A stretch of 41,098 bases of DNA, from positions 1 through 41,098 of the forward strand of contig CAITSE010000204.1 in the NCBI GenBank assembly GCA_903894975.1, given 5' to 3'. Below, piece after piece: positions 6,377-41,098 of this stretch; within the stretch, counting starts at the first letter, position 1; every line of letters begins with the position of its first letter. A program made the translations under genes and the position numbers. The notes beneath the pieces were generated by a model. It was not told the origin of the DNA. It searched no databases and worked only from the letters and a program-made list of their open reading frames with translations. This DNA is from an uncultured Lentisphaerota bacterium (lineage in GTDB: Bacteria; Verrucomicrobiota; Lentisphaeria; Oligosphaerales; CAITYL01).

Positions 6377-6456
6377 GTAATCGACTTGCGGAAAAACCTA
6401 ACAGCCTACAGACTAAACCGCTATCAACCGCAGCGTCCCCCGGGAACGCGTATCCC

Positions 6457-8205: not shown

Positions 8206-8216
8206 GAGGAAGGCGG

Positions 8217-8249: not shown

Positions 8250-8407
8250 GAAATGCGGGAAGAAGCCCATGGCGATGACAAATCTGTCGGCGTACGTTCC
8301 CAGGCAAGGGGAAGGATGCCCCCTCTCCCACGGAACGCCGCCGGGCGGGGCGAAGACCATCGCCAGGGGGTTCGGAGGCGCGCGAACTGCGCCCCCGACA
8401 ACGCCTT

Positions 8408-9400: not shown

Positions 9401-9420
9401 GATAGGCTCGGGAAGAATCG

Positions 9421-9526
9421 GGGTTCAGGGGCGAAAGCAGGGTGGGAACGGGGCGATACATGAATCTACAACCACTTCTCGATCTACTGGTTGATTTCTT
9501 AACCATGCCCCCTGAACCCTGAACCC
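9421..9526. repeat. TGAACCC words with complementary partner
   Basis: GGGTTCAGGGG at 9421-9431 is complementary to CCCCTGAACCC at 9509-9519, and the latter continues into a second TGAACCC unit. The block fills the 132-bp gap between the cyclophilin gene and the permease, both on the minus strand. The same heptamer is seen three times in tandem at 14050. Confidence 0.55.
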
Positions 9527-9532
9527 TCTTTT

Positions 9533-10105: not shown

Positions 10106-10196
10106 GGGACGGGTTCCTGAGGGGGTTGAGATACAACGCTCAAACTAACATACAACGTATTTATGGTTAGTCAGTTGTGGTCTATAAGCTATTCTC

Positions 10197-10294
10197 ATTC
10201 GCGTTCATTGGCGTTCATTCGCGGTTAACCTGTGCTTCTTTGGCTAATCCATTCAGGTTTGATTAACCGCGAATGCACGCCAATGAACGCGAAT
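10197..10294. repeat. 32-bp inverted repeat of GCGTTCATT words
   Basis: The left arm 10197-10228 (ATTCGCGTTCATTGGCG...) pairs with the right arm 10263-10294 with a single mismatch and a 34-nt loop. The arms contain a 10-nt word repeat (GCGTTCATTG, GCGTTCATTC). A second small stem, GTTTAAC (10296-10302)/GTTAAAC (10311-10317), adjoins it. The pair lies just downstream of ferritin, so a terminator role is likely. The gap 10106-10352 holds no gene. Confidence 0.75.
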
Positions 10295-10352
10295 AGTTTA
10301 ACTAGTTCAAGTTAAACAGGTATTAGCCAGGATGGTTCATGATGCGATCAGG

Positions 10353-10898
10353 TCAGGGCGCGGCGGCCACGGCGCCGAACTTGCCGACCAGCGGCGGCGG
10401 CAGGGAGAACGCGCGGGCGCCGAGTTCCTTGTCCAAGAACAGCATCCCGTCGCCGGCCTTGGCGCCAAGGAGCTTAAGCTTGGAGCTGATCTCGCCGAAG
10501 TTCGCCTCTTCCTCGACCTGCTCCTCTACAAACCACTTGAGCATGCTCTGGGTCGCGAAGTCGCGCTCCTTGACGGCCACGTCCATGATGTCGTTGATGG
10601 AGGCGGTGACGGTGTATTCGTGCTTGAGGCCGCGCTCGAAGACGTCCAGCGCCGACTTGAAGCTCTGATCGGGCGCGCCCACGGCGCCGAGCTTGACATC
10701 GCCGCCGCGGTCGCAGATGTAATTGTAGAAGATCAGGCCATGGCAACTCTCTTCCTGAGCCTGGATGCGGAGCCATTGGGCAAAGCCCTTGAGGTTTTCC
10801 CGTTCGAACCAGGCAGCCATCTGCAGGTAGAGCCAGGCCGAGTAGTATTCTTTGACGATCTGTTCGTTGAGAGCTTTGGCAACGCGCGGATTGAGCAT
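10353..10898 (-). CDS. ftnA: Ferritin (non-heme, FtnA type)
   Basis: The 181-residue four-helix ferritin oxidises Fe2+ and stores ferric mineral in a 24-mer shell. Ferroxidase-centre ligands are visible in KEYYSAWLYLQM (E and Y), AQEESCHG (E and H) and VEEQVEEE. The C-terminal DGMLFLDKELGAR matches the family. The ORF track extends 35 codons upstream. I choose ATG at 10898 because AGGAGG lies just before it and the family starts MLNP. A sigma70-like promoter is readable upstream at 10968-10995. It lies near feoAB, consistent with an iron uptake and storage neighbourhood. The gene symbol is by similarity. Confidence 0.94.
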   Translation of the reverse strand: MLNPRVAKALNEQIVKEYYSAWLYLQMAAWFERENLKGFAQWLRIQAQEESCHGLIFYNYICDRGGDVKLGAVGAPDQSFKSALDVFERGLKHEYTVTASINDIMDVAVKERDFATQSMLKWFVEEQVEEEANFGEISSKLKLLGAKAGDGMLFLDKELGARAFSLPPPLVGKFGAVAAAP

Positions 10899-10967
10899 GG
10901 GGAGATCCTCCTGGTTGAATCTGGAAACGGCCGTCCCCGATGCGGGAGGCTTCCGGATTGTGACCAC

Positions 10968-10995
10968 TATATAAGCGCAGCCGGTTCTTTTGCAA
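10968..10995 (-). promoter_or_regulatory. putative sigma70 promoter of ferritin
   Basis: On the minus strand TTGCAA (10990-10995) is followed after 16 nt by TATATA (10968-10973). This places a start about 60 nt upstream of the ferritin ATG. No repressor site was recognised. Confidence 0.45.
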
Positions 10996-11115
10996 GGTTG
11001 CAATCAGTCGTTGGGAATATACCGTTTACCGCAAAATACGACCGCTTTATCCAGACCGGGAGTTGCCTGCTGTGGCCAGGCGGTCCGGTTCGGCATCCGG
11101 AATGGGGATTTTCGT

Positions 11116-13845
11116 ATGGCTAGCCAGGACAAAGCCTCAGCGTTGGGACACATCATGCCGCTGGACGGCATCTGGTCGGTAAAGCTTGAGCGGACTCCGG
11201 CCCGGACCCGCGGGTTCGTGACCCTGCCCGGCACGCTGGAAAGCAACGGCATCGGCGACCCGGCGGTTTTTCCCGCGGCCAACGGTCCGGCGCGACCACT
11301 GAGCTTTGCCGGCCCCGCCGTGTTCGAACGCACCGTGAGCATCCCCGACAAATGGGCCGGGAAAAGCCTCCGCCTGTTCCTGGAACTGGTGCACGGCCGG
11401 TCCCAGGTCTGGGTGGATGACAAACCCGCCGAAGGCAGCGGCCGCAGCCTGGCTGTGCCGCACCAGTATGACCTCACCAGCCTGCTCACCCCCGGCGACC
11501 ATGTGCTGCGGCTTCTGGTGGACAACACACTGGCCATCCCCCTTTCCCCGGCCGCCGCCGGCGGGGCCGCAAACCACAACTGGAACGGGGTTCTCGGCCG
11601 TTGCGAATTACGCGTCGCCGACCCCGTGAGCCTGCGTCATGTGGCCGTGACCCCGGATATCCGCAAGCTCACGGCCGTGGCCAAAATCACCGTCGAAAAC
11701 CGCACCGGCGCCATCGTCTCCGGCACCCTCGCGATCAAAGCCGCCACCTGCTCCTCCCCGCAGAAACATGCGCCGCCGGGGTTGTCCCTGCCGGTCGTGC
11801 TCAATCCCGGCGTGAACGCCCTGGAAGCCGTCCTGCCCATGGGCGACCGCGTCCAGTTCTGGGACGAATTCATCCCGGCCGTCTACCGCATGACGCTCGA
11901 CCTGACCTGCACCGGACCCGACCAGCGCCGCCTGCGCGACACCGCCGTCGTCGAATTCGGCATGCGCGAAATCTCCCGCAAAGGCACCCAATTCCATCTC
12001 AACGGCCGCGCCATCCTCCTGCGCGGCACCCACCACCGCGGCCTGTTCCCGGACGACGCGCGGAACCCCGCCGAACCCGCGGGTTGGCTCAAGTTCTTCA
12101 AGGCCGCCCGCGCCCACGGATTCAACTTGGTGCGCTTCCCGGCCTGGTGCCCGCCCGAAGCGGCTTTTGCCGCGGCCGATATCACCGGCGTCTATCTCAT
12201 GCCCGAATCCCCGGTCCTCGGCGACTGTGCCGGGCGCCCGGAACTGCTCTCCTTTGCCTGGAAAGAGGCGGAGCGTATCCTGCACGACTTCGGCGACCAC
12301 CCGTCCTTCCTCTTTTTTTCCATAGGCGACGGCCTGACCGGAAAACCGGAATCCGTCCTGGATCTGATCCGGCACCTGAAAAACCGCGATGCCACCAAGC
12401 TTTATGCCGCGGGAACCGATGCGGAATGGACCCGGGCCGGCTGTAGCCTGGATCCGGCCGCCGCCGACTTCGCCGCCGCCGCCACCCTGGTAACCGTCCC
12501 CGGGGCTCCGGCCTGCTCCCTGCGCCGCACCGGCCCCGGCGAACCGGCCTCTACCGAACCCGATCACGCCGCCGCCGTCCGCGCCCTCCCGGTGCCGTTC
12601 ATCGCCACCGGCCTCGGCCGCCTGGCCGCCCATCCCGGCCTCCACACCCGGGAAAAATACACCGGCCGGCTACGCCCGGCGCACCTGGAAAAATTACGGG
12701 AACGCCTTCTGGAACAGGGGATTGCCGATCGCGCCGCGGACTGGGCCGCCGCTTCCGGTCAGCTCGCCATCCTCCTGGCCAAAGAGGAAATCGAAGCCGC
12801 CATCCGCACCCCCGGCCTCGGCGGATTCCTCTTTTCCGACTTGGAAGACGCACCCGGCCCCGACGGCCTGGCCACCTGCGGGTTCCTGGACGAGTTCGGT
12901 GACAGCAAGGGGATCATCACCGCCGACCGCGTTCGCCGCTTCTGCAGCCCGATCGTCGCCCTGGCCCGTTTCCCCAGATGGGTGTGGACCACCAACGAAA
13001 CCTTGCGCGCCCGCATCGAAGTGGCGCACTATGGCGAAGAAGGCGGCCTGGACATCTCGGTCAATTGGAAGTTCCGGGTCGACGGCACCGTGCTCGCCTC
13101 CGGCACATTCCCATCCCTGGACGTGGCCCAGGGGCGCCTGATAACCGTCGGCGCCATTTCCGTGCCACTGGCCGTCTGCGACGCGCCCGCCAAGGGCACG
13201 CTCTCCGTCGAGGTGCGCGGCGCCGAAGCGGAAAACCGCTGGGACTTGTGGATCTATCCCGACCCCGCCCGGCAGGCCGACCCCGCCCTCCCCGAGGATC
13301 TCACCGTAACCCGGGCCTGGACTCCGGAGGCGCGCAACCGCCTCCTGGCCGGTGGCCGCGTCGTGCTCATCCCCGGCCCGGACGTAAAACTGGCCAACGC
13401 CATCCCGGGCCGTTTCCTGCCCCCCGACGACACCGCCGCCGATCCCGCCGGCGGCGCGGATTGGCCTACCCTCGGCCTCTGGTGCGACGTCTCCCACCCG
13501 GCCTTGGACCACTTCCCCACCGACGCCAGCGCCGGCTGGCAGTGGCGTGACCTGGCCGAACGCTCCCGCGCCGTCAGCCTGGATTTCCTGCCGCCATCCT
13601 TCCGCGCCGTGGTCGAAATCATCGACAACCCCACCCGCTGCCAGCGCCTGGCCTGCCTGTTCGAAGCCCAGGTCGGTCCCGGCCGCCTGCTTTTCTGCAG
13701 CGTAGACCTGGAGACCGCCATGGCCTCCCGTCCCGCGGCGCGCCAGCTCCGGCACAGCCTGCTGGCCTACGCCGCCGGCGACAGTTTCGCCCCGGCCCAG
13801 ACCATTCCCGTCACCGCGGTGGACGCCCTGTTCCAGGCCGGATGA
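11116..13845 (+). CDS. GH2-fold protein, apparent loss of both catalytic glutamates
   Basis: The 909-residue protein has the GH2 layout. An N-terminal galactose-binding-like sugar-binding domain (about 15-165) is followed by an Ig-like domain, a TIM barrel (about 280-600) and a C-terminal beta-rich region. It resembles a GH2 subgroup whose members carry HPSF...SLGNELGG (acid/base) and SHEIGQ (nucleophile). Here the matching segments read HPSFLFFSIGDGLTG and FIATGLGRL. The acid/base position is therefore G406, preceded by D405 where Asn is expected, and the nucleophile position is G499. The flanking family landmarks (KYTG, EEIEAA, DSKGIIT, RRFCSP) are intact. I infer a carbohydrate-binding or scaffold role, or an altered mechanism. 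No signal peptide is evident. I choose ATG 11116 because GGGGAT precedes it and the sugar-binding domain starts soon after. It is divergent from ferritin. Confidence 0.8.
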   Translation: MASQDKASALGHIMPLDGIWSVKLERTPARTRGFVTLPGTLESNGIGDPAVFPAANGPARPLSFAGPAVFERTVSIPDKWAGKSLRLFLELVHGRSQVWVDDKPAEGSGRSLAVPHQYDLTSLLTPGDHVLRLLVDNTLAIPLSPAAAGGAANHNWNGVLGRCELRVADPVSLRHVAVTPDIRKLTAVAKITVENRTGAIVSGTLAIKAATCSSPQKHAPPGLSLPVVLNPGVNALEAVLPMGDRVQFWDEFIPAVYRMTLDLTCTGPDQRRLRDTAVVEFGMREISRKGTQFHLNGRAILLRGTHHRGLFPDDARNPAEPAGWLKFFKAARAHGFNLVRFPAWCPPEAAFAAADITGVYLMPESPVLGDCAGRPELLSFAWKEAERILHDFGDHPSFLFFSIGDGLTGKPESVLDLIRHLKNRDATKLYAAGTDAEWTRAGCSLDPAAADFAAAATLVTVPGAPACSLRRTGPGEPASTEPDHAAAVRALPVPFIATGLGRLAAHPGLHTREKYTGRLRPAHLEKLRERLLEQGIADRAADWAAASGQLAILLAKEEIEAAIRTPGLGGFLFSDLEDAPGPDGLATCGFLDEFGDSKGIITADRVRRFCSPIVALARFPRWVWTTNETLRARIEVAHYGEEGGLDISVNWKFRVDGTVLASGTFPSLDVAQGRLITVGAISVPLAVCDAPAKGTLSVEVRGAEAENRWDLWIYPDPARQADPALPEDLTVTRAWTPEARNRLLAGGRVVLIPGPDVKLANAIPGRFLPPDDTAADPAGGADWPTLGLWCDVSHPALDHFPTDASAGWQWRDLAERSRAVSLDFLPPSFRAVVEIIDNPTRCQRLACLFEAQVGPGRLLFCSVDLETAMASRPAARQLRHSLLAYAAGDSFAPAQTIPVTAVDALFQAG

Positions 13846-26486: not shown

Positions 26487-26649
26487 AAAATTTATTTTGA
26501 CAATTCGCCTTGCGCGCTGGCCGAATCCCTTTATTTTTAATTAAACGATTCATTTGATGGCGGCGGACATCCGCCGGTCTCTCATGCGATCCGATCATGT
26601 TGCACACTGTTATTACGTATCCCCTTCAACCCAAACAGGAAACCCGTTA

Positions 26650-29600
26650 ATGATCAAGGCAACCGGAACTCGCCTGCGGGCGGCCATCAGGCTGTGGCGC
26701 CCGTTTTTACTGCTGACAGCCTTTGGGTTGACTTGGGCATCCAAGGTCAGTGCCGCCAACGAAACGGTCACGGTGTACACGGCGACGCAATACCAGACAA
26801 TCATGGCATGGGGTGCGGGCGCGGGCTATTTTGCCCTTTCCGAAAAGGATTCGCTGCGGCTGCATCTGCTTGACGAAGCGGTGAATGGCGTGGGCATAAC
26901 GCGAGCCCGTTTTGAGCCTGGGGCCGGCTCCTCCCCGGATGGCGCCATGGACTGGGAGCTGTGGAATGACGACGGCGATCCCTCCACGACAACCATGAGT
27001 CAGATGAACCCGACGAAGATCGACGACGAGGCCACGCGGTTTTATCTGCCCATGAAGTCGTTGGTGGAAGCCAACAGCGAGACCTTCACCACCTACCTGA
27101 GCCCCTCCTATTTCACCAACGGCAGCAGTGGCGCGGCCCCCGCCTGGCTGTTGAACAGCCCCGGCGAACATGCCGAATACCTGACTTCAATCCTCCTGTA
27201 CCTGAAGAACACACACGGCATCACGGCGGACTACACCACCATCCTGAACAAGGCGGGCAACAACAACAATTACACCGCCACCGTCTGCGCCAACACCATC
27301 AAAGTCCTGGGCCCGCGGCTCGCGGCGTTGGGACTGCCCACCAAAGTCCAGTTCCCCGAGTGCATGCAGGCGGCGACATCCTACAGCTACATCACGGCGG
27401 TGCAGGACGACCCTGCGATCTGGCCGTACATCGGGCTTCTTTCGTATCACCTGTACGGGGGCGCCGACCCGGGCCGATCGAACCTCCGCGATTTCGGACT
27501 CGCGCGAAATATCCCTACCGGCCAGACGGAGTATATGGGCCTGACGGTGAGCATCCTGTATGACGACCTCATCAAAGGCGGGGTCTCGGTATGGGAGATT
27601 TACGCATGGAACGATGTCCTGCCGCCTGATGCGTCCCATTCGTGGTTCAGCCGCACGGCCCAATACTGGCAGATCCGCCAGGTCACGCGCTACGTGCGCC
27701 CCGGCGCCGTGCGGGTGGAAGCCGCTTCGAGCACGACCAACATCCGCCCGCTCGCCTTTGTCCGCAACGGCAAAATGACGGTGGTTCTCCTGAACAACAC
27801 CGTCAGCCAAGTGCCGAAGACCCTCGACCTGTCCGGGCTTCCCGCCGGCGAATACGGCGCCTGTTACTCGACCACCAACGCCACCGATTACACAGAACTG
27901 GGGCTGTTCACCGTCACCGTGGGCGGAACCTTGACCGTCACCGTTCCCGGGTCGTCGGTGCTGACGGTGTATCCCCATGAAACCAATCAGCCACCGACCC
28001 TGACCGACTGGAAAGCCACGCCCTCATTCCTGACGCAACCCGCCTCCGCCGCGACGCTGTCGGCGGCGGCACGGGATCCGGAGCTGGACGCCATTTCCTA
28101 TGCTTGGTCGGTGGCGAGCCAGCCGGCGGGAGCCGCAGCCATCCTCGCAACCCCATCCTCGGCAACCACCAACGTGAGCGGAATGACGGTCGCCGGCGAC
28201 TATGTCTTCGCCGTCGCGGTCCGTGATGCCACACACACCGTCACGCGCACCGTCGAGCTGACGGTATACGCGGGAAACCAGCCTCCGTATATCGGGAACA
28301 GCCACAATCGGTGGCCCGTCGTTGTCACGCTGCCGACCAGCACCACCACGCTGCGCGGCGGCGGAAGGGATCCCGAGGGCGATGCTCTGACCTACCAGTG
28401 GAGTCTGGTCAGCCAGCCGGCGGGGGCCAATGCGGCGCTGGCGGGGCAAACCACGAGCACGTGCTCCGTGTCCAACCAGACGGTGGCCGGCAATTATGTC
28501 TTCCAGTATTCGCTCAGCGATCCGACGCACACCGTTTCCCAGCAACTGACGGTTCCGGTTTATCCCGCGAACACGGCGCCGGTGATTTCCAGTGCCACGG
28601 CCACGGCCGCCACGATCACGCTGCCGACCGCCACCACCTCCCTGGCGGCGGTTACCAGCGATCCCGACGCCGCCGCGATCACGCCCTGGCGGCCCGGCGG
28701 CGATGTGCTGACCCACTGGTGGTCCGTCCAGAGCGCACCGGCCGGAGCCTCTCCTGTTTTCGCCAACCAGGGTGCGAAGAACACCGCGGTCGGCGGACTA
28801 ACCGCGACAGGCACATACGTCTTCCGGTTGACCGCCATCGACCGGACCTTGACGGCGACTAAAGACGTTACCGTGACGGTGGCGCCGCCGCCGTCGGTCC
28901 TGACATCCATCACCCTGGCGCCGACGAACACCGCGGTGCTGACCGGCGCGACCAAGCAGTTCACCGCGACCGCCAAGGACCAGTTTGGCGCCGCGATGTC
29001 GCCGCAGCCGACCTTCGGCTGGAGCGTGAGCGGCGGCGGCGCCATCAATGGCAGCGGCCTGTTCACAGCCGGCGGCACCGCCGGCGGACCGTACACGGTG
29101 ACGGCGACAAGCGGCGGCCAGATCGCCACGGCCAGCGTCACGGTGACGCCCGTGCTGGTTCCGGTGACGGTTGCGGCCAACACCACAAGCGGCGGCAGCC
29201 TAGGCCGGTACGACATCTACGAACTGACCATGACCGAGAGCGGGAGCTACGCCAACCCGTGGGAGGACGTGACCATCACGGCGGTCTTCACCTCGCCCTC
29301 GGCAAAGAGTTACACCGTCGGCGGATTTTATTACGACACAGCCACTTGGAAACTGCGCTTCGCGCCCATGGAACTGGGGAACTGGACCTGGAGCCTGACC
29401 TTCGACAACGGCGCGGGCAAGTTCGTCACCGGCGGCAACTTCACCTGCACGGCCTCGGGCAACAGCGGCTTTCTGCGCATGCAACCGGGGAACACCCGCA
29501 CCTTCATCACCGAGGGCGACAGCCGCCCGTTCTATGCGAACGGCTTCAACAAGCCCGCCTATACCGGCAACGGCGGCGTGGACGCGCCGACCTTTCCGAC

Positions 29601-32600
29601 CTTCATGGCTCCCTTCCGGGCCGCCGGAATCAACATGATCCGGGACAATGCCCAGGCCTGCCACACCAATGCCACGAACAATTATGGCAACAACCTCACG
29701 GTCAACGGGTTCAATGTCGGCGGGTCCGGGAAAAACAACTACGACACCGCCCTGGGGAAAGTCGAAGACCAGTATTACCAGTTGTTGCATCAGTCCGGCT
29801 TCAAACTCATGCTGGCGTTCATGCTCCACCCGAATCTCATCATCCCCAACTACGATGTGTCCAACCCGGCGGTCAAGGCCGCGGCCGAGAAATACCACAC
29901 CTACATGCTCAACCGCTTCTCGGCGTATGTGGACGTCTGGGAACTGGGCAATGAACTGAACAGCGTCACCCAGACGTACCTGGACACCGTCACCGGGATC
30001 TGCGGCGTCAAAGACCCCTATCAACATCCGCTGACCATCAGCAATCCGCAGGGCCAGCTTGACGAGTCCGGCCTGGCGGTCGTGGCACCGCACCGGTACA
30101 CGCCGGACGATAACTTGAAGATGGCCGACCTGGCGGCCTCCTGCCAGCGCAATCACGCCACCTATCCCGACAAGCCCCTGCTCTACGGTGAAGATGGGAA
30201 CTATACGCCCTACGGCAAGTACGATCCCGCGCGCTACCGCATCAGCATTTGGAGCGCGTTTACCAACCAGGCCGGGTGCCTGTTCTGGCTGGTAAGTTTT
30301 GACCAGAACTCCTGCGAGGCCGGCGCCGGGATCACCAACCAGTACATCGGCACGGAAGAGCGGGCACTGGCCAAGATCCTGGCCAATTTCACGGCCGATT
30401 TCGACCCATCGGCCGTACCCATGACGGCGACCCTGAACCCCTCCAACCAGATGACCGGGTCGGTGCTGGGCAGCGCCGTGGACATCGCCGGATACTTCAC
30501 CCATGCCACCAGCCATACCACGCCCCTGGCCGGCGCCAGGGTGACCCTGCTCATCCCGGCCGCCGGCATGCAGGGGCAATGGCTCGATCCCGCGACGGGC
30601 AACACCGTCCAGACCTTCACCGTGAACAGCGGCTCGCAAATTCTGACCCTCCCGACCTTCCGCTCCGACCTTGTGCTCCGCATCCGCGCCGCCGGCACGG
30701 CGCCGAAGCTCGAATTCAGCACGGCCAACTACAATGCGCGGGAAAACCAGGGCGTCCTCACCGGCACCGTGACCCGCTCCGGGTCGGCTGCGGGCGCGGT
30801 CTCCGTAACCTATTCGACCCGAGACGGCCAAGCCGTCGCCGGAACCAGTTACACCGCGGTCACCGGGACGCTCAGTTGGGCAGACGGCGACACGGCGCCC
30901 AAGACCTTCACCGTCCCCCTTCTGAACGACAACGTCTACGATGGCGACCGGGATTTCGCGCTGGTCCTGAGCAATCCGGCCGGCGGCGCCGGGCTGGGCA
31001 ACAATGCCGACGCGCTGGTCACGCTCTACAACGACGATTCGGACCTGGTGATGCTGAATGCCACGTCCTACGCGGTCATGAAGGATGCCGGAGCCACCGC
31101 CATCACCGTCCACCGCGTCGGCCGCGGGGTCGGCCCCGTCAGCGTCAACTACGACACCCAGGGCGGCAGCGCCACCACAAGCGACTACACGCCGATCCAG
31201 GCGGGGGCCACGTCGGTGACGGGCGTCATCAAGTGGGCGGACGGCGACCTCTCGCCCAAGACCGTCGCCATCCCGATCCTGAACAATCCGGGTTCGTCCG
31301 GCAACAAGACGTTCCGGTTCGAGCTCCTCAATCCCCAGGGCGTGGATATGGGCATGGCCTACCGGGCTACGGTCACGATTGTGGATCCGGCGGCCACGCG
31401 GGCCGGCGTCCTTCAGTTCGGCAGGTACTCGTATTTCACCAATGTCATCGGTGCCTGCGGCGCGACCGACGCCGGGTACGCGGTCACCCGCACCGCCGGG
31501 TCCGTCAGCGTTCCCGTTTCCCGCATCGGCGGCGCCGACGGCGCGGTCTCGGTCAGTTACAGCCTCATGGCCGGAACCGCCGTTGCCGGAGCGGATTACA
31601 CCAATGTTTCTGGCACCCTGTCCTGGGCGGACGGCGATGCGGCCGACAAGACCATCACCATCCCGGTGCTCAACAATGCGACGGCCTCCGGGAATGTCGC
31701 CGTCTGGGTGTACCTGAGCAGTCCCGTCGGCGGCGCGCTCCTCAACGGGTACATCGGCAACCGGGCCGCAATCGTGATCGCCGATCCCAACCTGCCGCCG
31801 GTGCTCGCCAACCCGCAGACCGCCGCCGGAACCGTCGGGAGCCTTTTCACCTGCACCGTTGCCGCCACCAGCACGCCCACCGCCTTCAGCGCCGCAAATC
31901 TGCCTTCCGGGCTCACCCTCAACCCCGCGACGGGCATCATCACCGGCACGGCCTCGGCCGGCATCGAAGGCGCCTATGACGTTGTGCTCGGCGCCGCCAA
32001 CGCCGGCGGCACGGGCTCGGCCCACCTGATGCTGACCCTCGGCCCGACCACAGCAACGGCCCCGGTCATCCTGTCCCAGCCCGCCGACACGGGCGTGACC
32101 GTGGGGCAGAGCGTCACCTTCTGCGTGACCGCCGCCGGCACGCCGCCCCTGAGCTACCAGTGGCGGCGGAACGGCGTGGTCATCGCCAACGCCGTCGGCT
32201 CCGCGTACAACATCACGTCTCCCGCGCTTACCGATCACGGTGCCCAGTTCAGCGTGGTCGTTACCAACAGCGTGGGAAGCCTTGCCAGCGGCACGGCCAC
32301 CCTGGCGGTTACCTCCTCGGCAACAGCCCCTTCCATCATCGCCAGCCCCGCCAGCCGCACCGTGAGCGTCGGGCAGACCGTGATCCTGAGCGTGACCGCC
32401 GCCGGTTCGGGGCCGCTGGATTACCTGTGGACCCGGAACGGCGCGAACATCGGCGGTGCGACCGCTTCCACATACACCATCTCGCCGGTGACCGCCGGGG
32501 AAAACGGCAACGCCTACGCCGTAACCGTCCAAAACACCATCGGGACCGCGACCAGCAACGACGCGGTACTGACGGTGAACGGAGGCACGCCGATCCTGAG

Positions 32601-34563
32601 CACGGTCAGCGTCGCGCCGGCCAACGTCAGCGTACTCACCACCGACACCCGGCAGTTCACCGCGACCGGCCGGGACCAGTACGGCGCGCTCATATCGCCG
32701 CAACCGGCCTTCGCCTGGGGCGTCAGCGGCGGCGGCAGCATTGACACCAACGGTCTGTTCACCGCGGGCGGCAGCGCCGGCGGCCCCTACATCGTCACAG
32801 CCTCCAGCAGCGGCTCGAGCGGCGCCGCCAGCGTCACCGTGACCCTGCCGCCGCCTGTCCTGACCTCGATCATCGTCTCCCCCACGAGCGCCGGCGTGGC
32901 GACCGGCACGACCCAGCAGTTCAGCGCCTCCGGCCGGGACCAGTACGGCGCCGCGATGTCACCCCAACCGACCTTCGCCTGGAGTGCCAGCGGCGGCGGC
33001 GGCATCGACACCAACGGCCTGTTCACCGCCGGCGGAACCGCCGGCGGACCGTACACGGTCACGGCTTCCAGCGGCGGAATTGACGGCACCGCGAGTGTGA
33101 CGGTGGTGGACCCCGCCATCCCGGTGCTGACCTCGATCGCCGTAACGCCGGCCGCCGCAGGCGTCGCCATCTCTTCGACCCAGCAGTTCAGTGCGGTCGC
33201 CAAAGATCAGCACGGCATCGCCATGGCCTCGCAGCCGACCTTCGCCTGGAGCGTTAGCGGCGGCGGCAGCATCGACGTCAACGGCCTGTTCACGGCCGGC
33301 GGCACCGCCGGCGGACCGTACATCGTGACGGCGACGGGCGGCGGCAAGAGCGGCACCGCCAACGTCACCGTGACCTCATCGCTGATCCTGTTCGACGATG
33401 CCGTCCATAGTTGCACCCTTTATGGAGCCAAAACGGTCCTGGCGTACTCGTCCACCGCGCCCGTCCACTCCGGCACCGTGGCCTATGGTGCCACATCCGG
33501 ATCTTCTTACCAGGGCGGTCTGGCCGGCAGCAACCTGGTCATTCCCGTCGGCAAAACCACGGTAAAAACCTACATCTACATCCAGTCGGCCACCGCGATT
33601 TCCGGGTTCATCGCCCAGTTGGGTGCCCCGAACTACACCTCGACCACCTTCAGCAACAGCTCGAACACCGCGTATTGGAAGGTCGACGGTGTCGCCGGCC
33701 GCGTCGCCATGACCGCCAACACCTGGCATGAGGTGACCCTGGACCTGGGCGGAGCCTTCGGCGCCACTCTGACGCCCGGCACGACCAAGTTAAACAATGT
33801 GACGGTCCTGTTCACCAGTGCGTCCGAGACCATCTATCTGGACGACACCAGCCTGACGGCCCCGGCCCCGGTCTTCACCACGCTGGTCGTGACCCCGACG
33901 GATGCGAGTGTGCAAGCCGCTCAGGCCCAGCAGTTCACGGCCGTTGCCAAAGACCAGTACGGGTATGACCTGTCACCCCAGCCGGCCATCGCCTGGAGCG
34001 TCAGCGGCGGCGGAACGATCACCGGCAGCGGACTCTTCACCGCGACCGGCGCCGGCGGCGGACCCTACACCGTCACCGCCACCAGCGCCGGAGTGATCGG
34101 AACCGCCAACGTGACGATCACGGGAACTCCCCATGACACTTGGAAGAACTCCCAGTTCGGCGCCAACGCGGGGAACCCGGCCGTCAGCGGCGACGCCGTG
34201 GTGAACAACGCGGCGGGCATCCCCAATCTGACCACCTATGCGCTCGGGGTGAACCCATACACGGCCGCGGCGACCGACCTGCCGGCCGCCGCCACGGTCA
34301 CGACCTCCGGCACGAGCTATCTCGCACTCTCCTTCACCCGCAACACGGCGGCGACCGACCTGACGCTCACCGTGCAAAGCAGCAGCGACCTGACCAATAC
34401 GGCCGGGTGGACGGCCGTGAGCACCTGGCACGCCGGCGCCTGGTCGCCCCCGGACCGCGTCCAGGAAAGCGGTGCCCCGCCGCAAGTCCAGGTCCAGGTC
34501 AAGGACACCGCGCCGGTGGGCTCGGCGCCCCGCCGTTTCCTGCGGCTGAAGATCGACCCGTGA
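26650..34563 (+). CDS. Giant secreted two-catalytic-domain glycoside hydrolase (GH30-like + DUF5060/clan-A GH)
   Basis: This is a 2637-residue exported protein. A signal peptide (cleavage near VSA, about residue 35) leads into these parts. A GH30-like TIM barrel comes first (about 38-440; predicted nucleophile E294 in GQTEYMG). Three PKD/REJ-like beta repeats follow (440-745) and one BIG2-type Ig repeat. A DUF5060 domain precedes a GH5-like barrel (acid/base E1102 in WELGNELN, nucleophile E1181 in LLYGEDG). Next come three Calx-beta repeats (about 1350-1710), a He_PIG-like repeat, two Ig domains and three BIG2 repeats. A jelly-roll-like module (about 2243-2405), one more BIG2 repeat and the C-terminal domain complete it. 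In the first barrel the NEP position reads N200-K201-A, so its acid/base may be lost. I choose ATG 26650, not 26554, because the signal peptide starts there and AGGAAA precedes it. Confidence 0.88.
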   Translation: MIKATGTRLRAAIRLWRPFLLLTAFGLTWASKVSAANETVTVYTATQYQTIMAWGAGAGYFALSEKDSLRLHLLDEAVNGVGITRARFEPGAGSSPDGAMDWELWNDDGDPSTTTMSQMNPTKIDDEATRFYLPMKSLVEANSETFTTYLSPSYFTNGSSGAAPAWLLNSPGEHAEYLTSILLYLKNTHGITADYTTILNKAGNNNNYTATVCANTIKVLGPRLAALGLPTKVQFPECMQAATSYSYITAVQDDPAIWPYIGLLSYHLYGGADPGRSNLRDFGLARNIPTGQTEYMGLTVSILYDDLIKGGVSVWEIYAWNDVLPPDASHSWFSRTAQYWQIRQVTRYVRPGAVRVEAASSTTNIRPLAFVRNGKMTVVLLNNTVSQVPKTLDLSGLPAGEYGACYSTTNATDYTELGLFTVTVGGTLTVTVPGSSVLTVYPHETNQPPTLTDWKATPSFLTQPASAATLSAAARDPELDAISYAWSVASQPAGAAAILATPSSATTNVSGMTVAGDYVFAVAVRDATHTVTRTVELTVYAGNQPPYIGNSHNRWPVVVTLPTSTTTLRGGGRDPEGDALTYQWSLVSQPAGANAALAGQTTSTCSVSNQTVAGNYVFQYSLSDPTHTVSQQLTVPVYPANTAPVISSATATAATITLPTATTSLAAVTSDPDAAAITPWRPGGDVLTHWWSVQSAPAGASPVFANQGAKNTAVGGLTATGTYVFRLTAIDRTLTATKDVTVTVAPPPSVLTSITLAPTNTAVLTGATKQFTATAKDQFGAAMSPQPTFGWSVSGGGAINGSGLFTAGGTAGGPYTVTATSGGQIATASVTVTPVLVPVTVAANTTSGGSLGRYDIYELTMTESGSYANPWEDVTITAVFTSPSAKSYTVGGFYYDTATWKLRFAPMELGNWTWSLTFDNGAGKFVTGGNFTCTASGNSGFLRMQPGNTRTFITEGDSRPFYANGFNKPAYTGNGGVDAPTFPTFMAPFRAAGINMIRDNAQACHTNATNNYGNNLTVNGFNVGGSGKNNYDTALGKVEDQYYQLLHQSGFKLMLAFMLHPNLIIPNYDVSNPAVKAAAEKYHTYMLNRFSAYVDVWELGNELNSVTQTYLDTVTGICGVKDPYQHPLTISNPQGQLDESGLAVVAPHRYTPDDNLKMADLAASCQRNHATYPDKPLLYGEDGNYTPYGKYDPARYRISIWSAFTNQAGCLFWLVSFDQNSCEAGAGITNQYIGTEERALAKILANFTADFDPSAVPMTATLNPSNQMTGSVLGSAVDIAGYFTHATSHTTPLAGARVTLLIPAAGMQGQWLDPATGNTVQTFTVNSGSQILTLPTFRSDLVLRIRAAGTAPKLEFSTANYNARENQGVLTGTVTRSGSAAGAVSVTYSTRDGQAVAGTSYTAVTGTLSWADGDTAPKTFTVPLLNDNVYDGDRDFALVLSNPAGGAGLGNNADALVTLYNDDSDLVMLNATSYAVMKDAGATAITVHRVGRGVGPVSVNYDTQGGSATTSDYTPIQAGATSVTGVIKWADGDLSPKTVAIPILNNPGSSGNKTFRFELLNPQGVDMGMAYRATVTIVDPAATRAGVLQFGRYSYFTNVIGACGATDAGYAVTRTAGSVSVPVSRIGGADGAVSVSYSLMAGTAVAGADYTNVSGTLSWADGDAADKTITIPVLNNATASGNVAVWVYLSSPVGGALLNGYIGNRAAIVIADPNLPPVLANPQTAAGTVGSLFTCTVAATSTPTAFSAANLPSGLTLNPATGIITGTASAGIEGAYDVVLGAANAGGTGSAHLMLTLGPTTATAPVILSQPADTGVTVGQSVTFCVTAAGTPPLSYQWRRNGVVIANAVGSAYNITSPALTDHGAQFSVVVTNSVGSLASGTATLAVTSSATAPSIIASPASRTVSVGQTVILSVTAAGSGPLDYLWTRNGANIGGATASTYTISPVTAGENGNAYAVTVQNTIGTATSNDAVLTVNGGTPILSTVSVAPANVSVLTTDTRQFTATGRDQYGALISPQPAFAWGVSGGGSIDTNGLFTAGGSAGGPYIVTASSSGSSGAASVTVTLPPPVLTSIIVSPTSAGVATGTTQQFSASGRDQYGAAMSPQPTFAWSASGGGGIDTNGLFTAGGTAGGPYTVTASSGGIDGTASVTVVDPAIPVLTSIAVTPAAAGVAISSTQQFSAVAKDQHGIAMASQPTFAWSVSGGGSIDVNGLFTAGGTAGGPYIVTATGGGKSGTANVTVTSSLILFDDAVHSCTLYGAKTVLAYSSTAPVHSGTVAYGATSGSSYQGGLAGSNLVIPVGKTTVKTYIYIQSATAISGFIAQLGAPNYTSTTFSNSSNTAYWKVDGVAGRVAMTANTWHEVTLDLGGAFGATLTPGTTKLNNVTVLFTSASETIYLDDTSLTAPAPVFTTLVVTPTDASVQAAQAQQFTAVAKDQYGYDLSPQPAIAWSVSGGGTITGSGLFTATGAGGGPYTVTATSAGVIGTANVTITGTPHDTWKNSQFGANAGNPAVSGDAVVNNAAGIPNLTTYALGVNPYTAAATDLPAAATVTTSGTSYLALSFTRNTAATDLTLTVQSSSDLTNTAGWTAVSTWHAGAWSPPDRVQESGAPPQVQVQVKDTAPVGSAPRRFLRLKIDP
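33376..33866 (+). repeat. shared jelly-roll-like module, copy 1 (in giant protein 1)
   Basis: The module of about 160 residues opens with ILFDDAVHSC and continues PVHSGTVAYGAT, NLVIPVGKTT, NTWHEVTLDLGGAFGA and IYLDDTSL. Its DNA is almost the same as the copy at 38488-38975, with exact runs such as CAGCAACCTGGTCATTCCCG. Two diverged copies lie at 36304-36815 and 36937-37410. I suspect a carbohydrate-binding module but recognise no named CBM family. Confidence 0.75.
34129..34563 (+). repeat. shared C-terminal domain, copy 1
   Basis: The ~145-residue end domain reads DTW.N.QFGANA, then VVNNAAGIPNLTTYALGVNP, and closes with PRRFLRLKI. The second giant protein ends in a near copy (39507-39942). 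In related PVC proteins the first part has D.DGDG.PN.LEYALG; here the calcium-loop-like aspartates are replaced (VVNNAAG). It is probably a sorting or anchoring domain. Confidence 0.8.
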
Positions 34564-34593
34564 TCCCTCTGATCCCGTGATGAACCGAGTGAG

Positions 34594-37500
34594 ATGAACG
34601 GTACTATGCGACAGTTTCTTTCCCGGCCTCTTTTCTTGCTCTCCCTGGCATTGGTGCTGGCGATGGCCCTGAACGGCCATGCCAATCCGCCGGCCCCGGG
34701 CTGGACGCTCACGTTCGAGGATGAGTTCCTCGGCGTCAACCCGGACGGCACCGGCCTGGACCGAAGCAAGTGGACGCCCGGCCTGGGCACCTTGCGCTCC
34801 AACGGCGAGCAGGAGTGGTATGTGGATTCCCCCAACAACATCGCCATCTCCAACGGCACGCTGAAGCTGAATGCCATTCACGACCATCCGCCGGGCGGAG
34901 TCGGCCAGGGGCCGGGCCTGTGCGGAGACGGCATCACCCGCCCGGATTGCGACTATTCCTCGGGAGAGGTGATCACAAAGAGCTCCTTCTACCAGCGCTT
35001 CGGATACTTCGAAATCCGCTGCAAGATGCCTGCGGGCAAGGGGCAATGGCCGGCATTCTGGCTGCTCCCGGCCGATCCAGGCGGGTGGCCGCCGGAATAT
35101 GACATCTTCGAAAACCTCGGGGACAAGACCAAAACCCTGTACTTTTCCAGCCATGTGAGCCCGCTCTATCCGTATGTGGGCGGCGGCGTCCGCAAGGAGG
35201 TCGGGCAGTATGTCACGTCGGGCACGGTTAATTACTCCGCGGGGTTTCACACCATTGGCTTTCTCTGGAAGCCCGGCCGGATCAGTTGGTACCTGGACGA
35301 CGTCCCGCAGGGAACGCTCCGGCGCTATGTCCATTACATGTCGCCAATGTATCTCCTGGCGAACCTGGCCGTGGGCGGGAGCTGGCCCGGTTACCCGGAC
35401 GGGTCTTATCCTTTTCCGACGACCCTGGAAATCGATTACATCCGGGCTTGGGAACTGCCCCAACCCAGTCCCTGGCAGACCGCGGACATCGGCAGTCCCG
35501 GGCTGGCAGGCCGGGCCTCCTGGTGCGACGGCGTCTTCGACGTCACCGGCGAGGGCAACGACATCTGGGGCTGCAGCGACCAGTTCCGCTATGTCTACCG
35601 CCCCCTCAATGGCGACGGCGCCATCACCGCCCGGGTGGCCAGCCTGAAAAACGGCACCACCACGGGCGGCGCCCAGAATCCCTGGGTCAAGGCCGGCATC
35701 ATGATCCGCGAAACCCTGGACGCGAATGCCAAAACGGCCATGGTCGGCGTCACCCCGGGCGGAAACGGAAGCTTCTTCCAATCCCGCGCGGCCACCAACG
35801 GCGCCACCGCCGCCGTGGTGCCGTGGAACGCCCAGACTCCTTACTATTGGGTCAAGCTTGTCCGGAACGGTTCCGTCCTGACGGGCTCAACCTCGCCGGA
35901 CGGTTCGGCCTGGACGCCGATCGGCACCGCCACCATCGCCATGGGCGCCTCCGTGTATGCCGGGCTTGCCGTCACCAGCCACAACCCCGGCACATTGGCG
36001 GACGCGCAGTTCGACCAGGTCGCGGTTTCCTCAGCGGCGCCGGTTCTGACCTCGATCGCCGTTTCCCCGACCGGCACAACCATCGCCGCGGGCGGATCCC
36101 GGCTGTTCACCGCGACCGGGTATGACCAGTTCGGCGGCGCGCTGTCGCCGCAACCGGCCATTGACTGGGACGTCACCGGCGGCGGCGCCATCGACGACAA
36201 CGGAGTGTTTTCCGCCTGTGCCGTGGCCGGCGGCCCCTACATGGTGACGGCCGCGAACGGAAGCGTCCAGGGCGCCGCCACGCTGTCCGTCCTCGCCCCG
36301 CCGGCGGGAGGCAGTCTGGTCCTTTTCGACGACACGCTGCGGAACGGCTGCACCTTCACCGGAGTCGCGGCCCAGGCCGGGACGCCGGTCCATTCCGGCA
36401 CGGCGGCCTACGGCGGGACGGCAAGCGCGTACGCCCAGTTCGGGTTGAGCTGCCACGGCCTGGTGGTGCCCGCGGACAAAACCGCGGTCCAGTTCTGGTT
36501 CTACATCTCCGGCACCGCCACCGGCATCGGCGGGTTCATGGTCCAACAAGGCTCGGGCAGTTACCCGACCGCAAGCTTCTCTTCCAGCACCGGCGTCTGG
36601 ACGGTCGACGGGTTCTCCGGAACCACCACCAAGGGCAAGCCCGACGCCATTACGCCAAACACGTGGCACCTGGCGACGCTGAATCTGGCGGCCACCTTCG
36701 CCGCGGCCGGCAAGACCTTCACCCCGGGCGTCACCAAGCTGAACACGGTTGTGGCCCAGGTAACCAATGCGGCGGAAACGATTTACATGGACGACGTCAG
36801 CCTGGTGCCGGAGTTGTCCGCGCCGGTGGTGGCCAAGCCGGACGCCCTGTATCCGGCGCGGGTCTCCACCCTGCCCGCGCCCGGGCCGGTCCTGCCGCCG
36901 CGGTCGCTCCTGCCCCCGCCGGGCGTCGCCGGCATGGGCGGAATCTGCCTCTTCGACGACCTGCCGCAGAACGGCTGCACCTACTCGGGCAGCATCGCCG
37001 CGCTCACCTCGCCGGTCCACTCCGGCACGGCCGCCTATGGCGCGACCGCCGGCGGGTCGCCCCAGCTCGGACTGTCCCTGAACAAGCTGGTCGTTCCCGC
37101 CGGACAGACGACGTTGAAAATGTACGTCTACGTGAAAAGCCCCGCGACCGGCGTCCTCTCCTTCATGGTGGCGCTGGGACCGCCGACCTACCAGAGCTTC
37201 ACCTTCAACAACTCCAGCACGGCGTATTGGACGGTCGACGGCGCACCGGGCAGCGTCAACATGACCGCCAATACCTGGCATGAGGTGAAACTGAACTTGG
37301 CCGGCGCGTTCGGCGCCAGCCTGGTCCCGGGCACGACCAAGCTCGGCTCCGTGCTGACCCAGTTCACCAGCGGCTCGGAATCCGTCTATATGGACGATGT
37401 GTTCCTGGTTCCCCCGGATGGGTTCACGCCCGTCCTGGCCTCCATCACCCTGGCCCCGGCGGCCGTCGCGCTGCCACCGGGTTCAACCCGGCAGTTCGTC

Positions 37501-39942
37501 GCCATCGGCAAAGACCAGGGCAGCACAACCCTGGCCCTGCCCTCCGTGGCCTGGAGCGCGAGCGGCGGCGGAACCATTGACGGCACCGGCCTGTTCGCCA
37601 CCGGCACCAACGCTGGCGGGCCGTACACCGTGACCGCGTCCAGCCTGGGTCAGACCGGAACCGCCAGCGTGACCGTGGTCGGCGGCGGCGGCGCGCCGAT
37701 ATTGACCACGATTGCCGTGGCCCCGGCGGGCGCCAGCGTGCAGGCCGGTGCGAACCAGACCTTTACCGCGGTGGCCAAAGACCAGTACGGCGCCCTGCTC
37801 TCCCCGCAACCGGCCTTCACCTGGAGCGTGAATGGCGGAGGCGCGTTCACCGGCAGCGGCCTGTTCACCGCCGGCGGCACGGCCGGCGGACCGTACACCG
37901 TGATCGCCGCGAGCGGCGGCATCTCCGGAACCGCCGGCGTGACCGTCACCGGCGGAGGCGGCGCTCCCCCGGTCCTGACCTCCATCACGGTTTCGCCGGC
38001 CAGCGCCAGCCTGCTAACCGGCACCACCAAGGCGTTCGTGGCCACAGCGATCGACCAGGATGGCGCCAGCATGTCGCCGCAACCCGTCTTTGCCTGGAGC
38101 GTGACCGGCGGCGGCACGATCAACGGCAGCGGCCTCTTCACCTCGGGCGCCGCGGCCGGCGGACCCCACACAGTCACGGCCGCCAGCGCGGGCATCGGCG
38201 GAACCGCAACCGTGTCCGTCACCCTCCCCCCGCCGGTGCTGACCTCGGTGACTGTGACCCCCGCCAGCAACACCATCCTGACCGGCGCGACCCAGCCCTT
38301 CACCGCCACCGGCATCGACCAGTATGGCGCCGCCCTGGCGCCGCAACCGACTTTCACCTGGGCCGTGAGCGGCGGCGGCACCATCAACGGCAGCGGCCTC
38401 TTCACCTCGGGAACCGCGACCGGCGGACCGTACACGGTCACCGCCGCCGGCACGGGGAAAACCGGCACGGCCCTGATCTCCGTGGCGGCCCCGGTAATCC
38501 TGTTCGACGACGCACCCCGGAACGGCTGCGCCTACTCGGGAACCAAAACGTTCCTGGTCCTCTCGTCCACCGCGCCCGTCCACTCCGGCACGGCGGCCTA
38601 TGGCGCCACAGGAGACAAGTATTATCAGTGCGGACTGACCGCCAGCAACCTGGTCATTCCCGTCGGCAAGACGACGTTGAAAACCTACATCTACATCCAG
38701 TCGGCCTCCACGATCTCCGGGGTCATCGCCCAGTTGGGCGCCCCGAACTATACGTCGACCACCTTCAGCAACACCACGAACTCCGCGTATTGGAAAGTCG
38801 ACGGCGGCGTCGGCGGCGTTACCATGGCCGCCAACACCTGGCATGAGGTGACCCTGGATCTGGCCGGAGCCTTCGGAGCCACTCTGACGCCCGACACCAC
38901 CAAGCTGAACAGCGTGACCGTCCAGCTCACCAACGCTGCCGCCTCCGTCTATTTGGACGACACCAGCCTGACCCTTCCTTCGCCCGGATTGACCACCGTC
39001 TCGGTCACGCCCGCGAGCGCCGCCGTGCAGGCCGGCGCCACCCGGCAGTTCGCCGCCACCGGCCTCGACCAATACGGCGCCCCGCTGTCGCCCCAACCCG
39101 TCTTCGCTTGGATCGTAAGCGGCGGCGGAACCATCACGACCGGCGGCCTGTTCACCGCGACCGGATCGAGCGGCGGCCCCTACACGGTGACCGCCACCAG
39201 CGGCAGCCTCAGCGGAAGCGCGACCGTCACCGTCACCGCACTGCCGGCGCCGGTGTTGACCGCGGTCGCGGTCTCGCCGGCAAACGCCAGCCTGTTGCCC
39301 GGCGCGACGATGGCATTCACCGCCACCGCCCTGGATCAGTACGGCGCTCCCCTGTCCTCGCAGCCAGCCTTTACCTGGAGTGTCGACGGCGGCGGCATCA
39401 CCGGCAGCGGCTCCTTCGCCGCGGACAACACCGCCGGCGGACCGTACACCGTCACGGCCGCCAGCGGCGGCAGAAGCGGAACCGCCGCCGTGACCGTTGC
39501 CGCCCCGCCGCTGGACACCTGGAACGCCGCCCAGTTCGGCGCGAACGCGGCGGACCCGGCCGTAAGCGGAGGCGCGATGGTGAACAACGCGGCCGGCATC
39601 CCCAATCTGATGGCCTACGCCCTCGGTGTCAGCCCGTACACGGCCGCCGCGGACGCGCTCCCGGTCGCCACCACGGCCATCGCCTCCGGCACGAGTTACC
39701 TGGCCCTCTCCTTCACTCGCAACACCGATGCGACCGACCTGACGCTCACGGTGCAAGGCAGCAACGACCTGACCAACCCGGCCGGGTGGGCGACCGTGAG
39801 CACCTGGCACGGCGGCGCCTGGTCGCCGCCGGGCTGCGTCCTGGAAAGTGGCTCACCTCCACAACTCCAGGTGCAGGTGCAAGATGCCGCGCCCGTAGGC
39901 TCCGTCCCCCGCCGTTTCCTGCGTCTGAAGGTCGGGCCATAA
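34594..39942 (+). CDS. Giant secreted GH16 (laminarinase/agarase-type) multidomain protein
   Basis: This 1782-residue exported protein has a signal peptide (cleavage near GHA, about residue 30). A GH16 catalytic domain follows (about 30-290), whose ExDxxE site reads E168-Y-D170-I-F-E173. A concanavalin-like DUF1349-type domain comes next (290-480), then one BIG2 repeat and two jelly-roll-like modules joined by a Pro-rich linker (about 740-780). Four BIG2 repeats, a third module, two more BIG2 repeats and the C-terminal domain end the protein. GH16 enzymes hydrolyse beta-1,3/1,4-glucans or galactans such as laminarin, lichenan, agarose or carrageenan. The site is compatible with activity, but the substrate is not determined. 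It starts 30 bp after the previous stop, so the pair is very likely one operon. ATG 34594 has GAG just before it; a second ATG at 34606 is possible. Confidence 0.9.
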   Translation: MNGTMRQFLSRPLFLLSLALVLAMALNGHANPPAPGWTLTFEDEFLGVNPDGTGLDRSKWTPGLGTLRSNGEQEWYVDSPNNIAISNGTLKLNAIHDHPPGGVGQGPGLCGDGITRPDCDYSSGEVITKSSFYQRFGYFEIRCKMPAGKGQWPAFWLLPADPGGWPPEYDIFENLGDKTKTLYFSSHVSPLYPYVGGGVRKEVGQYVTSGTVNYSAGFHTIGFLWKPGRISWYLDDVPQGTLRRYVHYMSPMYLLANLAVGGSWPGYPDGSYPFPTTLEIDYIRAWELPQPSPWQTADIGSPGLAGRASWCDGVFDVTGEGNDIWGCSDQFRYVYRPLNGDGAITARVASLKNGTTTGGAQNPWVKAGIMIRETLDANAKTAMVGVTPGGNGSFFQSRAATNGATAAVVPWNAQTPYYWVKLVRNGSVLTGSTSPDGSAWTPIGTATIAMGASVYAGLAVTSHNPGTLADAQFDQVAVSSAAPVLTSIAVSPTGTTIAAGGSRLFTATGYDQFGGALSPQPAIDWDVTGGGAIDDNGVFSACAVAGGPYMVTAANGSVQGAATLSVLAPPAGGSLVLFDDTLRNGCTFTGVAAQAGTPVHSGTAAYGGTASAYAQFGLSCHGLVVPADKTAVQFWFYISGTATGIGGFMVQQGSGSYPTASFSSSTGVWTVDGFSGTTTKGKPDAITPNTWHLATLNLAATFAAAGKTFTPGVTKLNTVVAQVTNAAETIYMDDVSLVPELSAPVVAKPDALYPARVSTLPAPGPVLPPRSLLPPPGVAGMGGICLFDDLPQNGCTYSGSIAALTSPVHSGTAAYGATAGGSPQLGLSLNKLVVPAGQTTLKMYVYVKSPATGVLSFMVALGPPTYQSFTFNNSSTAYWTVDGAPGSVNMTANTWHEVKLNLAGAFGASLVPGTTKLGSVLTQFTSGSESVYMDDVFLVPPDGFTPVLASITLAPAAVALPPGSTRQFVAIGKDQGSTTLALPSVAWSASGGGTIDGTGLFATGTNAGGPYTVTASSLGQTGTASVTVVGGGGAPILTTIAVAPAGASVQAGANQTFTAVAKDQYGALLSPQPAFTWSVNGGGAFTGSGLFTAGGTAGGPYTVIAASGGISGTAGVTVTGGGGAPPVLTSITVSPASASLLTGTTKAFVATAIDQDGASMSPQPVFAWSVTGGGTINGSGLFTSGAAAGGPHTVTAASAGIGGTATVSVTLPPPVLTSVTVTPASNTILTGATQPFTATGIDQYGAALAPQPTFTWAVSGGGTINGSGLFTSGTATGGPYTVTAAGTGKTGTALISVAAPVILFDDAPRNGCAYSGTKTFLVLSSTAPVHSGTAAYGATGDKYYQCGLTASNLVIPVGKTTLKTYIYIQSASTISGVIAQLGAPNYTSTTFSNTTNSAYWKVDGGVGGVTMAANTWHEVTLDLAGAFGATLTPDTTKLNSVTVQLTNAAASVYLDDTSLTLPSPGLTTVSVTPASAAVQAGATRQFAATGLDQYGAPLSPQPVFAWIVSGGGTITTGGLFTATGSSGGPYTVTATSGSLSGSATVTVTALPAPVLTAVAVSPANASLLPGATMAFTATALDQYGAPLSSQPAFTWSVDGGGITGSGSFAADNTAGGPYTVTAASGGRSGTAAVTVAAPPLDTWNAAQFGANAADPAVSGGAMVNNAAGIPNLMAYALGVSPYTAAADALPVATTAIASGTSYLALSFTRNTDATDLTLTVQGSNDLTNPAGWATVSTWHGGAWSPPGCVLESGSPPQLQVQVQDAAPVGSVPRRFLRLKVGP
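38488..38975 (+). repeat. shared jelly-roll-like module, copy 4 (in giant protein 2)
   Basis: This near duplicate of 33376-33866 contains VILFDDAPRNGC, NLVIPVGKTTLKTYIYIQS, NTWHEVTLDLAGAFGA and VYLDDTSL. The nucleotide match is much closer to the copy in the other gene than to the two copies within its own gene. This suggests recent duplication or gene conversion. Confidence 0.75.
39507..39942 (+). repeat. shared C-terminal domain, copy 2
   Basis: DTWNAAQFGANAADPAVSGG, then MVNNAAGIPNLMAYALGVSP and PRRFLRLKV match the end of the first giant protein at both protein and DNA level. The intact pairing on two otherwise different enzymes supports a shared cell-surface or secretion role. Confidence 0.8.
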
Positions 39943-40273: not shown

Positions 40274-41098
40274 ATGAGCGAGATCATGCCTTCAAAAGTG
40301 TCTCCGGAAGGTTCCGACAAAACCATGGCCACGGCCGCAAGCTCGGCCGGCCAACCCGGAGCGGAAGCCGCGGAAGCCGCAACCATGCCCAGCGCCCCCG
40401 GCGCTCCTCCGCCCGCGGCGAACAAACCACAGGCCGGCGGCCAATTCCAAGGGCTTCAAGCCGGACAGATGCTGGGAAAATGCAAGATCGGGCGGGAACT
40501 CGGCCGTGGCGGCATGGGCGCCGTCTACCTGGCCCAGCACCAGACCCTGGACGTGCCGGTCGCTGTCAAAATCCTGCCGCCAGAAATCGCCGCCAGCCAT
40601 CCGCAGTTCGCCGACCGATTCATGCGCGAAGCCAAGCTCGCCTGTCGTATCAAGCACGCCAATGTCATCTCCGTCATGGACGCCGAACGCGACGAAAAGA
40701 CCGGCCTTTACTACATCATTCAGGAGTTTGTCGACGGCGGCAGCGTCCGCGACCTCATGCGCAAGGGCGCGTTGACCGAGGCCCAGGCGCTGGACATCAT
40801 CGCCGGCGTTGCCGAAGCCCTGGCCGCCGCCGCGGATTTCCAAATCGTCCACCGCGATATCAAACCTGAAAATATCATGCTCACCCGCAAGGGCGAGGTC
40901 AAGCTCGCCGATCTCGGCATTGCCAAGGAACGTTCCGAGGAGGACGCCGGCCTGACCATGTCCCAGGTCATGATGGGCACACCGGCCTACATGGCCCCGG
41001 AACAGGCTCAGGACGCCAAGAACGTCGACGCCCGCGCCGACATCTACAGCCTCGGCGCCACGCTCTACCACATGCTCTGCGGCGCCCCGCCCTTCTCC
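40274..41098 (+). CDS. Ser/Thr protein kinase (PknB-like), cut by window edge
   Basis: The first 275 residues are visible; the gene runs off the right edge with no stop, which is why the ORF track lacks it. A disordered Ala/Pro-rich leader (1-65) precedes a Hanks-type kinase domain. The glycine loop is GRELGRGGMGAVYLA, the catalytic lysine is K99 (VAVKIL) and the helix C glutamate is E119 or nearby. The HRDIKPEN loop has catalytic D195. DLG replaces DFG, with D213 kept, followed by GTPAYMAPEQ. It should phosphorylate Ser/Thr in the cytoplasm, and the C-terminal part may carry sensor or membrane segments that cannot be seen here. ATG 40274 has AAAGGAA upstream. Such kinases are abundant in PVC bacteria. 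Confidence 0.92.
   Translation, partial: MSEIMPSKVSPEGSDKTMATAASSAGQPGAEAAEAATMPSAPGAPPPAANKPQAGGQFQGLQAGQMLGKCKIGRELGRGGMGAVYLAQHQTLDVPVAVKILPPEIAASHPQFADRFMREAKLACRIKHANVISVMDAERDEKTGLYYIIQEFVDGGSVRDLMRKGALTEAQALDIIAGVAEALAAAADFQIVHRDIKPENIMLTRKGEVKLADLGIAKERSEEDAGLTMSQVMMGTPAYMAPEQAQDAKNVDARADIYSLGATLYHMLCGAPPFS

Follow-up and report, generated by a model that had tools for sequence, protein, structure and literature searches.

Multi-modular glycosidases are a well-known class of enzymes, and a close comparison for the gene pair described here comes from Caldicellulosiruptor bescii: CelA and its relatives are large secreted multi-domain glycosidases encoded by clustered genes, they have identical catalytic modules in common that are attributed to gene duplication, and binding modules lie in between (PMC4892530). 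In freshwater Verrucomicrobia, Big_2 and CBM domains are present on other large proteins (PMC5615132). The recurrent C-terminal domain and the PEP-CTERM-like relatives, both described below, hint at an origin of the window in that phylum. The pair resembles the C. bescii system in that it also consists of clustered genes for large secreted multi-domain glycosidases with duplicated common modules. However, the common parts are catalytic in C. bescii (GH5, GH48), whereas here they form a non-catalytic tail, and one of the catalytic heads is probably dead. The common non-catalytic tail, the probably dead head and a module without an assigned family are thus what distinguishes the pair. In the literature that we searched we found no paper with exactly this combination of modules, which is not proof of its absence. 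Our preferred reading, to which we assign a probability of roughly 65%, is that the two genes are an operon-like pair for secreted multi-modular polysaccharide degraders of a known general kind, with a duplicated tail and with a GH30-like head that lacks its acid/base residue and would bind glycans rather than cut them.

The window, i. e. the whole stretch of 41,098 nucleotides that was analysed, is a contig of a draft genome that is about 89% complete and comprises 4.46 Mb in 376 contigs. Genes A and B lie on the same strand with a gap of 30 bp. The first-pass annotation had reported two adjacent secreted proteins of 2637 and 1782 residues, and both open reading frames are confirmed, with signal-peptide-like N termini that are consistent with secretion. 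For gene A, a TTG start would give 26554-34563; the ATG at 26650 yields the protein of 2637 residues and opens its signal-peptide-like stretch. We infer that the two genes are co-transcribed. An assembly chimera had been named as an outcome that would undo this picture, and one may indeed ask whether a chimera or a contaminant contig is at hand: the genome is a draft in 376 pieces, and the relatives of the jelly-roll module as well as most of those of the C-terminal domain sit in other classes. However, the longest exact repeat within 26554-39942 has at least 30 and fewer than 35 bases, and such repeats are as a rule too short to mislead an assembler. Moreover, the GC3 of the two genes (0.85-0.87; gene A, 0.85) is within the range of the neighbouring genes. 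Finally, the DNA topoisomerase of the contig shares 66-71% identity with those of two genomes of the same family as compared to about 46-63% for most others, indicating that the contig belongs in the correct bin. An assembly chimera is thus an unlikely origin of the gene pair, and we regard an artefact of either kind as very improbable. The features of the locus are listed in the table.

Table. Features of the two-gene locus (positions in the window).
Feature	Position	Strand	Evidence and remarks
Gene A	26650..34563	+	2637 aa; signal peptide, then module mosaic
GH30-like head	26776..27981	+	Pfam Glyco_hydro_30C, 22.6 bits vs cut-off 22; PDB GH30 matches
Three K319L-like PKD domains (gene A)	27991..28893	+	Pfam PF22352, E 2.1e-24; kept behind GH30-like head in G259
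BIG-type repeat A1	28897..29148	+	phmmer
DUF5060 + clan-A-type barrel (gene A)	29155..30699	+	Pfam DUF5060, 8.3e-18; PDB 9gmj/9gpc, 4n0r
Three Calx-beta domains (gene A)	30700..31773	+	Pfam PF03160, 4e-42, three stretches
He_PIG domain + two Ig domains (gene A)	31795..32535	+	Pfam
BIG-type repeats A2-A4	32593..33375	+	phmmer
Jelly-roll (CBM-like) module of gene A	33385..33858	+	phmmer; family model predicts beta-sandwich
BIG-type repeat A5	33871..34122	+	phmmer
C-terminal domain of gene A	34135..34560	+	76% identical to gene B copy; phylum-wide family
Gene B	34594..39942	+	1782 aa; signal peptide, then GH16 + modules
GH16 catalytic domain	34681..35463	+	Pfam PF00722, 1.2e-17; PDB laminarinases, 5.9e-29
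DUF1349-like domain	35458..36039	+	weak Pfam match, 21 bits, under cut-off 32.4; new relative to first-pass annotation
BIG-type repeat B1	36043..36291	+	phmmer
Jelly-roll module B1	36319..36804	+	phmmer; modelled copy
Jelly-roll module B2	36946..37407	+	phmmer; Pro-rich linker precedes
BIG-type repeats B2-B5	37432..38484	+	phmmer
Jelly-roll module B3	38494..38973	+	closest copy to gene A module
BIG-type repeats B6-B7	38989..39498	+	phmmer
C-terminal domain of gene B	39514..39939	+	phmmer; phylum-wide family

GH30 enzymes use a retaining mechanism that involves two glutamates (PMC13431644). The head of protein A shares with this family of clan GH-A the Pfam GH30C score, matches to solved xylanases, the nucleophile glutamate and the asparagine that precedes the acid/base position. 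The similarity to the solved members is weak (phmmer, E 1.8e-9 for a GH30-type xylanase), and used alone as the query, the head is barely above the gathering score of the GH30C model. The nucleophile, which follows strand 7, is retained at 27529-27531, where QTEY aligns with the homologues. In contrast to the family, the acid/base position behind strand 4 is occupied by a lysine (AAG, 27250-27252), whereas all eight of the eight aligned homologues have a glutamate in an NEP-type motif. Given the GH30 mechanism with its two glutamates, this replacement suggests that the head is probably not hydrolytic. The opposite possibility, that the head is still active with the help of another acid/base residue or that the lysine is an assembly error, has an appreciable though minor chance of being correct. 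The lysine depends on a single codon of a draft assembly, which one base change, from GAG to AAG, would explain; moreover, the rest of the domain, the preceding asparagine and the nucleophile are all conserved. However, the local motif around the position, TILNKAGNNNNYTA, contains neither glutamate nor aspartate, and the flanking residues diverge from the homologues as well. We therefore favour a head that binds glycans rather than cleaving them. A head that has kept its nucleophile and lost its acid/base residue can be directly compared with intact homologues of another class: its closest relatives are encoded at two loci of the genome G259, which belongs to a different class, with 37-40% identity. 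The first is an intact open reading frame of 888 residues in which the same three PKD domains follow the head, before an unrelated tail. The second (G259:C51:6199-8909) is split over two frames by a frameshift or an assembly error, and its acid/base glutamate is intact. In a tblastn search of plasmids, the head gave only weak matches to GH and PKD regions. GH30 members combine a barrel with a beta-sandwich; an AlphaFold model of the head, built from two sequences, was poor (pTM 0.37). The literature that we searched offered no paper on GH30 pseudoenzymes.

Catalysis at the locus would then most likely be due to two other domains, i. e. the GH16 domain of protein B as a beta-1,3-glucanase of the laminarinase type or a related enzyme, and the DUF5060 barrel of protein A. 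The GH16 domain scores far above the Pfam threshold (PF00722, 64.4 bits vs a cut-off of 22), and by sequence it is nearest to laminarinases. Protein B shares with these enzymes the ExDxxE motif, which is intact as EYDIFE at 35095-35112, and differs from them by the fusion of this domain to seven BIG repeats, three jelly rolls and the C-terminal domain. The DUF5060 domain is also clearly recognized (64.8 bits vs a cut-off of 27.2). As in the solved DUF5060 glycoside hydrolase-like proteins (PDB 9gmj, 4n0r), it is followed by a barrel with a pair of candidate catalytic glutamates, WELGNE (from 29938) and YGED (from 30184), both of which are intact; however, the alignment with the solved proteins covers only the N-terminal part, and no substrate can be deduced from it. 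We take EYDIFE as well as WELGNE and YGED to be the catalytic carboxylates on the basis of the GH16 and clan-A patterns. In the literature searched, we found no publication devoted to DUF5060 enzymes. The earlier claim of different catalytic heads thus holds in so far as a GH30-like head, a DUF5060 barrel and a GH16 domain are distinct, but the first of these lacks the acid/base glutamate.

The two proteins might also serve adhesion rather than degradation, with long Ig-like stalks that display sugar-binding heads at the surface and with catalysis being secondary or lost. Such a role is consistent with the missing acid/base residue and with the composition of both proteins, which consist for the most part of Ig-like, Calx-beta or PKD domains; the three PKD, three Calx-beta, one He_PIG and two Ig domains of protein A had escaped the first-pass annotation. 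A second giant mosaic of NHL and He_PIG stretches, which is encoded in the same genome and weakly matches the C-terminal domain, points in the same direction. However, the candidate catalytic carboxylates are intact in both the GH16 domain and the DUF5060 barrel, and we consider a mainly adhesive system unlikely. For a pair of degrading enzymes, the BIG, PKD, Calx-beta and Ig domains would be spacers.

How did the two proteins come to have the same tail? The counts given earlier are exact: phmmer identified 12 BIG-type repeats in the two proteins (five in A, seven in B; i-E 2.5e-20 to 9.5e-48), four jelly-roll modules (one and three; 2.4e-35 to 1.3e-103) and one C-terminal domain each. Repetition to this extent far exceeds what chance would produce. 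At E <= 0.001 in a genome-wide search, only a single repeat passes with Pfam Big_2, and in the scan of individual proteins protein B reaches 38.7 bits (cut-off 22.8, four stretches) and protein A gives no match. At the DNA level, a collinear block of about 1.5 kb joins 32580-34121 of gene A with 37686-39236 of gene B, and a second aligned block covers the C-terminal domains (33934-34555 with 39316-39934). The order of the common end block is BIG-BIG-BIG-jelly roll-BIG-C-terminal domain. The closest pairs of modules are the jelly roll of A with B3 (75% identical amino acids, 83% DNA identity) and the two C-terminal domains (76% and 82%, respectively). For the former, dS is 0.35 and dN 0.146 (dN/dS about 0.42), for the latter dS is 0.47 and dN 0.134 (dN/dS about 0.29), indicating that both pairs are under purifying selection. 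The closest partner of a BIG repeat is not consistently the collinear one, which suggests local expansion or conversion inside each gene that has partly overwritten the signal of the duplication. Since most of what the two tails have in common is a single collinear end block, the simplest history is the duplication of a tail followed by local changes of the repeats rather than the free mixing of a kit. Thus, a tail that is found in few lineages can become common to neighbouring enzymes through duplication. The duplicated end block would provide both proteins with the same tail for anchoring and substrate binding.

The locus had initially been interpreted as a degradation system built to order, with different catalytic heads swapped on a common scaffold. 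One part of this idea stands: two different heads are attached to one type of tail, and the GH30-like head, together with the three PKD domains, is present on an unrelated tail in G259, so recombination between heads and tails has happened in the phylum. A general kit is a different matter. BIG modules of this type and jelly rolls were both found nowhere outside genes A and B in the draft genome, so that no third carrier of these two modules was detected there; moreover, the jelly roll was not found in 385 of the 388 sampled genomes of the phylum, and the other two carry it on small proteins only. A lineage-wide system of exchangeable heads is therefore improbable, and duplication is the better reading of the common tail.

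The jelly-roll module has no trustworthy match in Pfam and no sequence match of weight in the PDB. With copy B1 as the predicted sequence and the remaining three copies as the alignment, the fold is predicted to be a beta-sandwich (pTM 0.77). The nearest solved folds identified by Foldseek include CBM8, CBM61, CBM35, CBM16 and CBM22; these matches are weak, with borderline E values (1.1e-3 at best) and TM scores of up to about 0.55 among the top matches. The predicted topology resembles that of beta-sandwich CBM families (CBM22, CBM35, CBM8, CBM16), although there is no match to a family at the sequence level and the TM score is about 0.55 at best. Based on this model, the module is likely to bind sugars, and the four natural copies would represent a putative sugar-binding module without prior description. 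The two other genomes that encode it, G259 and G321, belong to one genus outside the class of the gene pair; there, the open reading frames specify small secreted proteins of about 220-250 residues, and the protein of G259 has, as judged by eye, a PEP-CTERM-like end. Scans of a collection of genome contigs with protein B and with the jelly-roll alignment, and of viral contigs, yielded no confirmed relative, and a tblastn search of plasmids with the jelly roll gave a single weak partial match. One may go further and speculate that the jelly roll founds a new CBM family and that the proteins form a two-part system, in which the dead GH30-type head serves as a specific sensor or anchor for a glycan and so directs the cutting DUF5060 and GH16 domains to a mixed polysaccharide; we find this extended version doubtful.

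The C-terminal domain has a very different distribution. It comprises about 140 residues that end in RxFxRLKV, and it represents a large family in the phylum; the copies of the gene pair have no Pfam match. It was detected in 103 of 289 genomes of the phylum, often many times per genome and on host proteins of widely differing length. All other genomes with a match lie outside the class of the gene pair, and it is possible that the tail was acquired laterally from another class. The domain may function at the surface or in secretion. The concern that the common modules might be a family already described with this architecture therefore applies to this widespread domain but not to the architecture as a whole. 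Two apparent matches were set aside, one in G033 in an open reading frame that by eye resembles a peptidyl-prolyl isomerase chaperone, and one in G038 in a frame of equal length. In the genome of the gene pair, there are four more weak matches. One of these is at the end of an open reading frame of 3238 residues (G000:C191, L102:2017-11730), the giant mosaic mentioned above, which has 28 NHL and 17 He_PIG stretches.

Upstream of the gene pair, feoA, feoB, FecCD permease and ferritin genes are clustered around a cyclophilin gene (5836-11003), a neighbourhood for iron uptake and storage. The window also contains an open reading frame of 951 residues (10990-13845) in which a GH2 sugar-binding domain narrowly misses the threshold (27.9 bits vs a cut-off of 28). 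Directly after gene B, a gene for a Ser/Thr protein kinase (40274-41098) is cut by the end of the contig.
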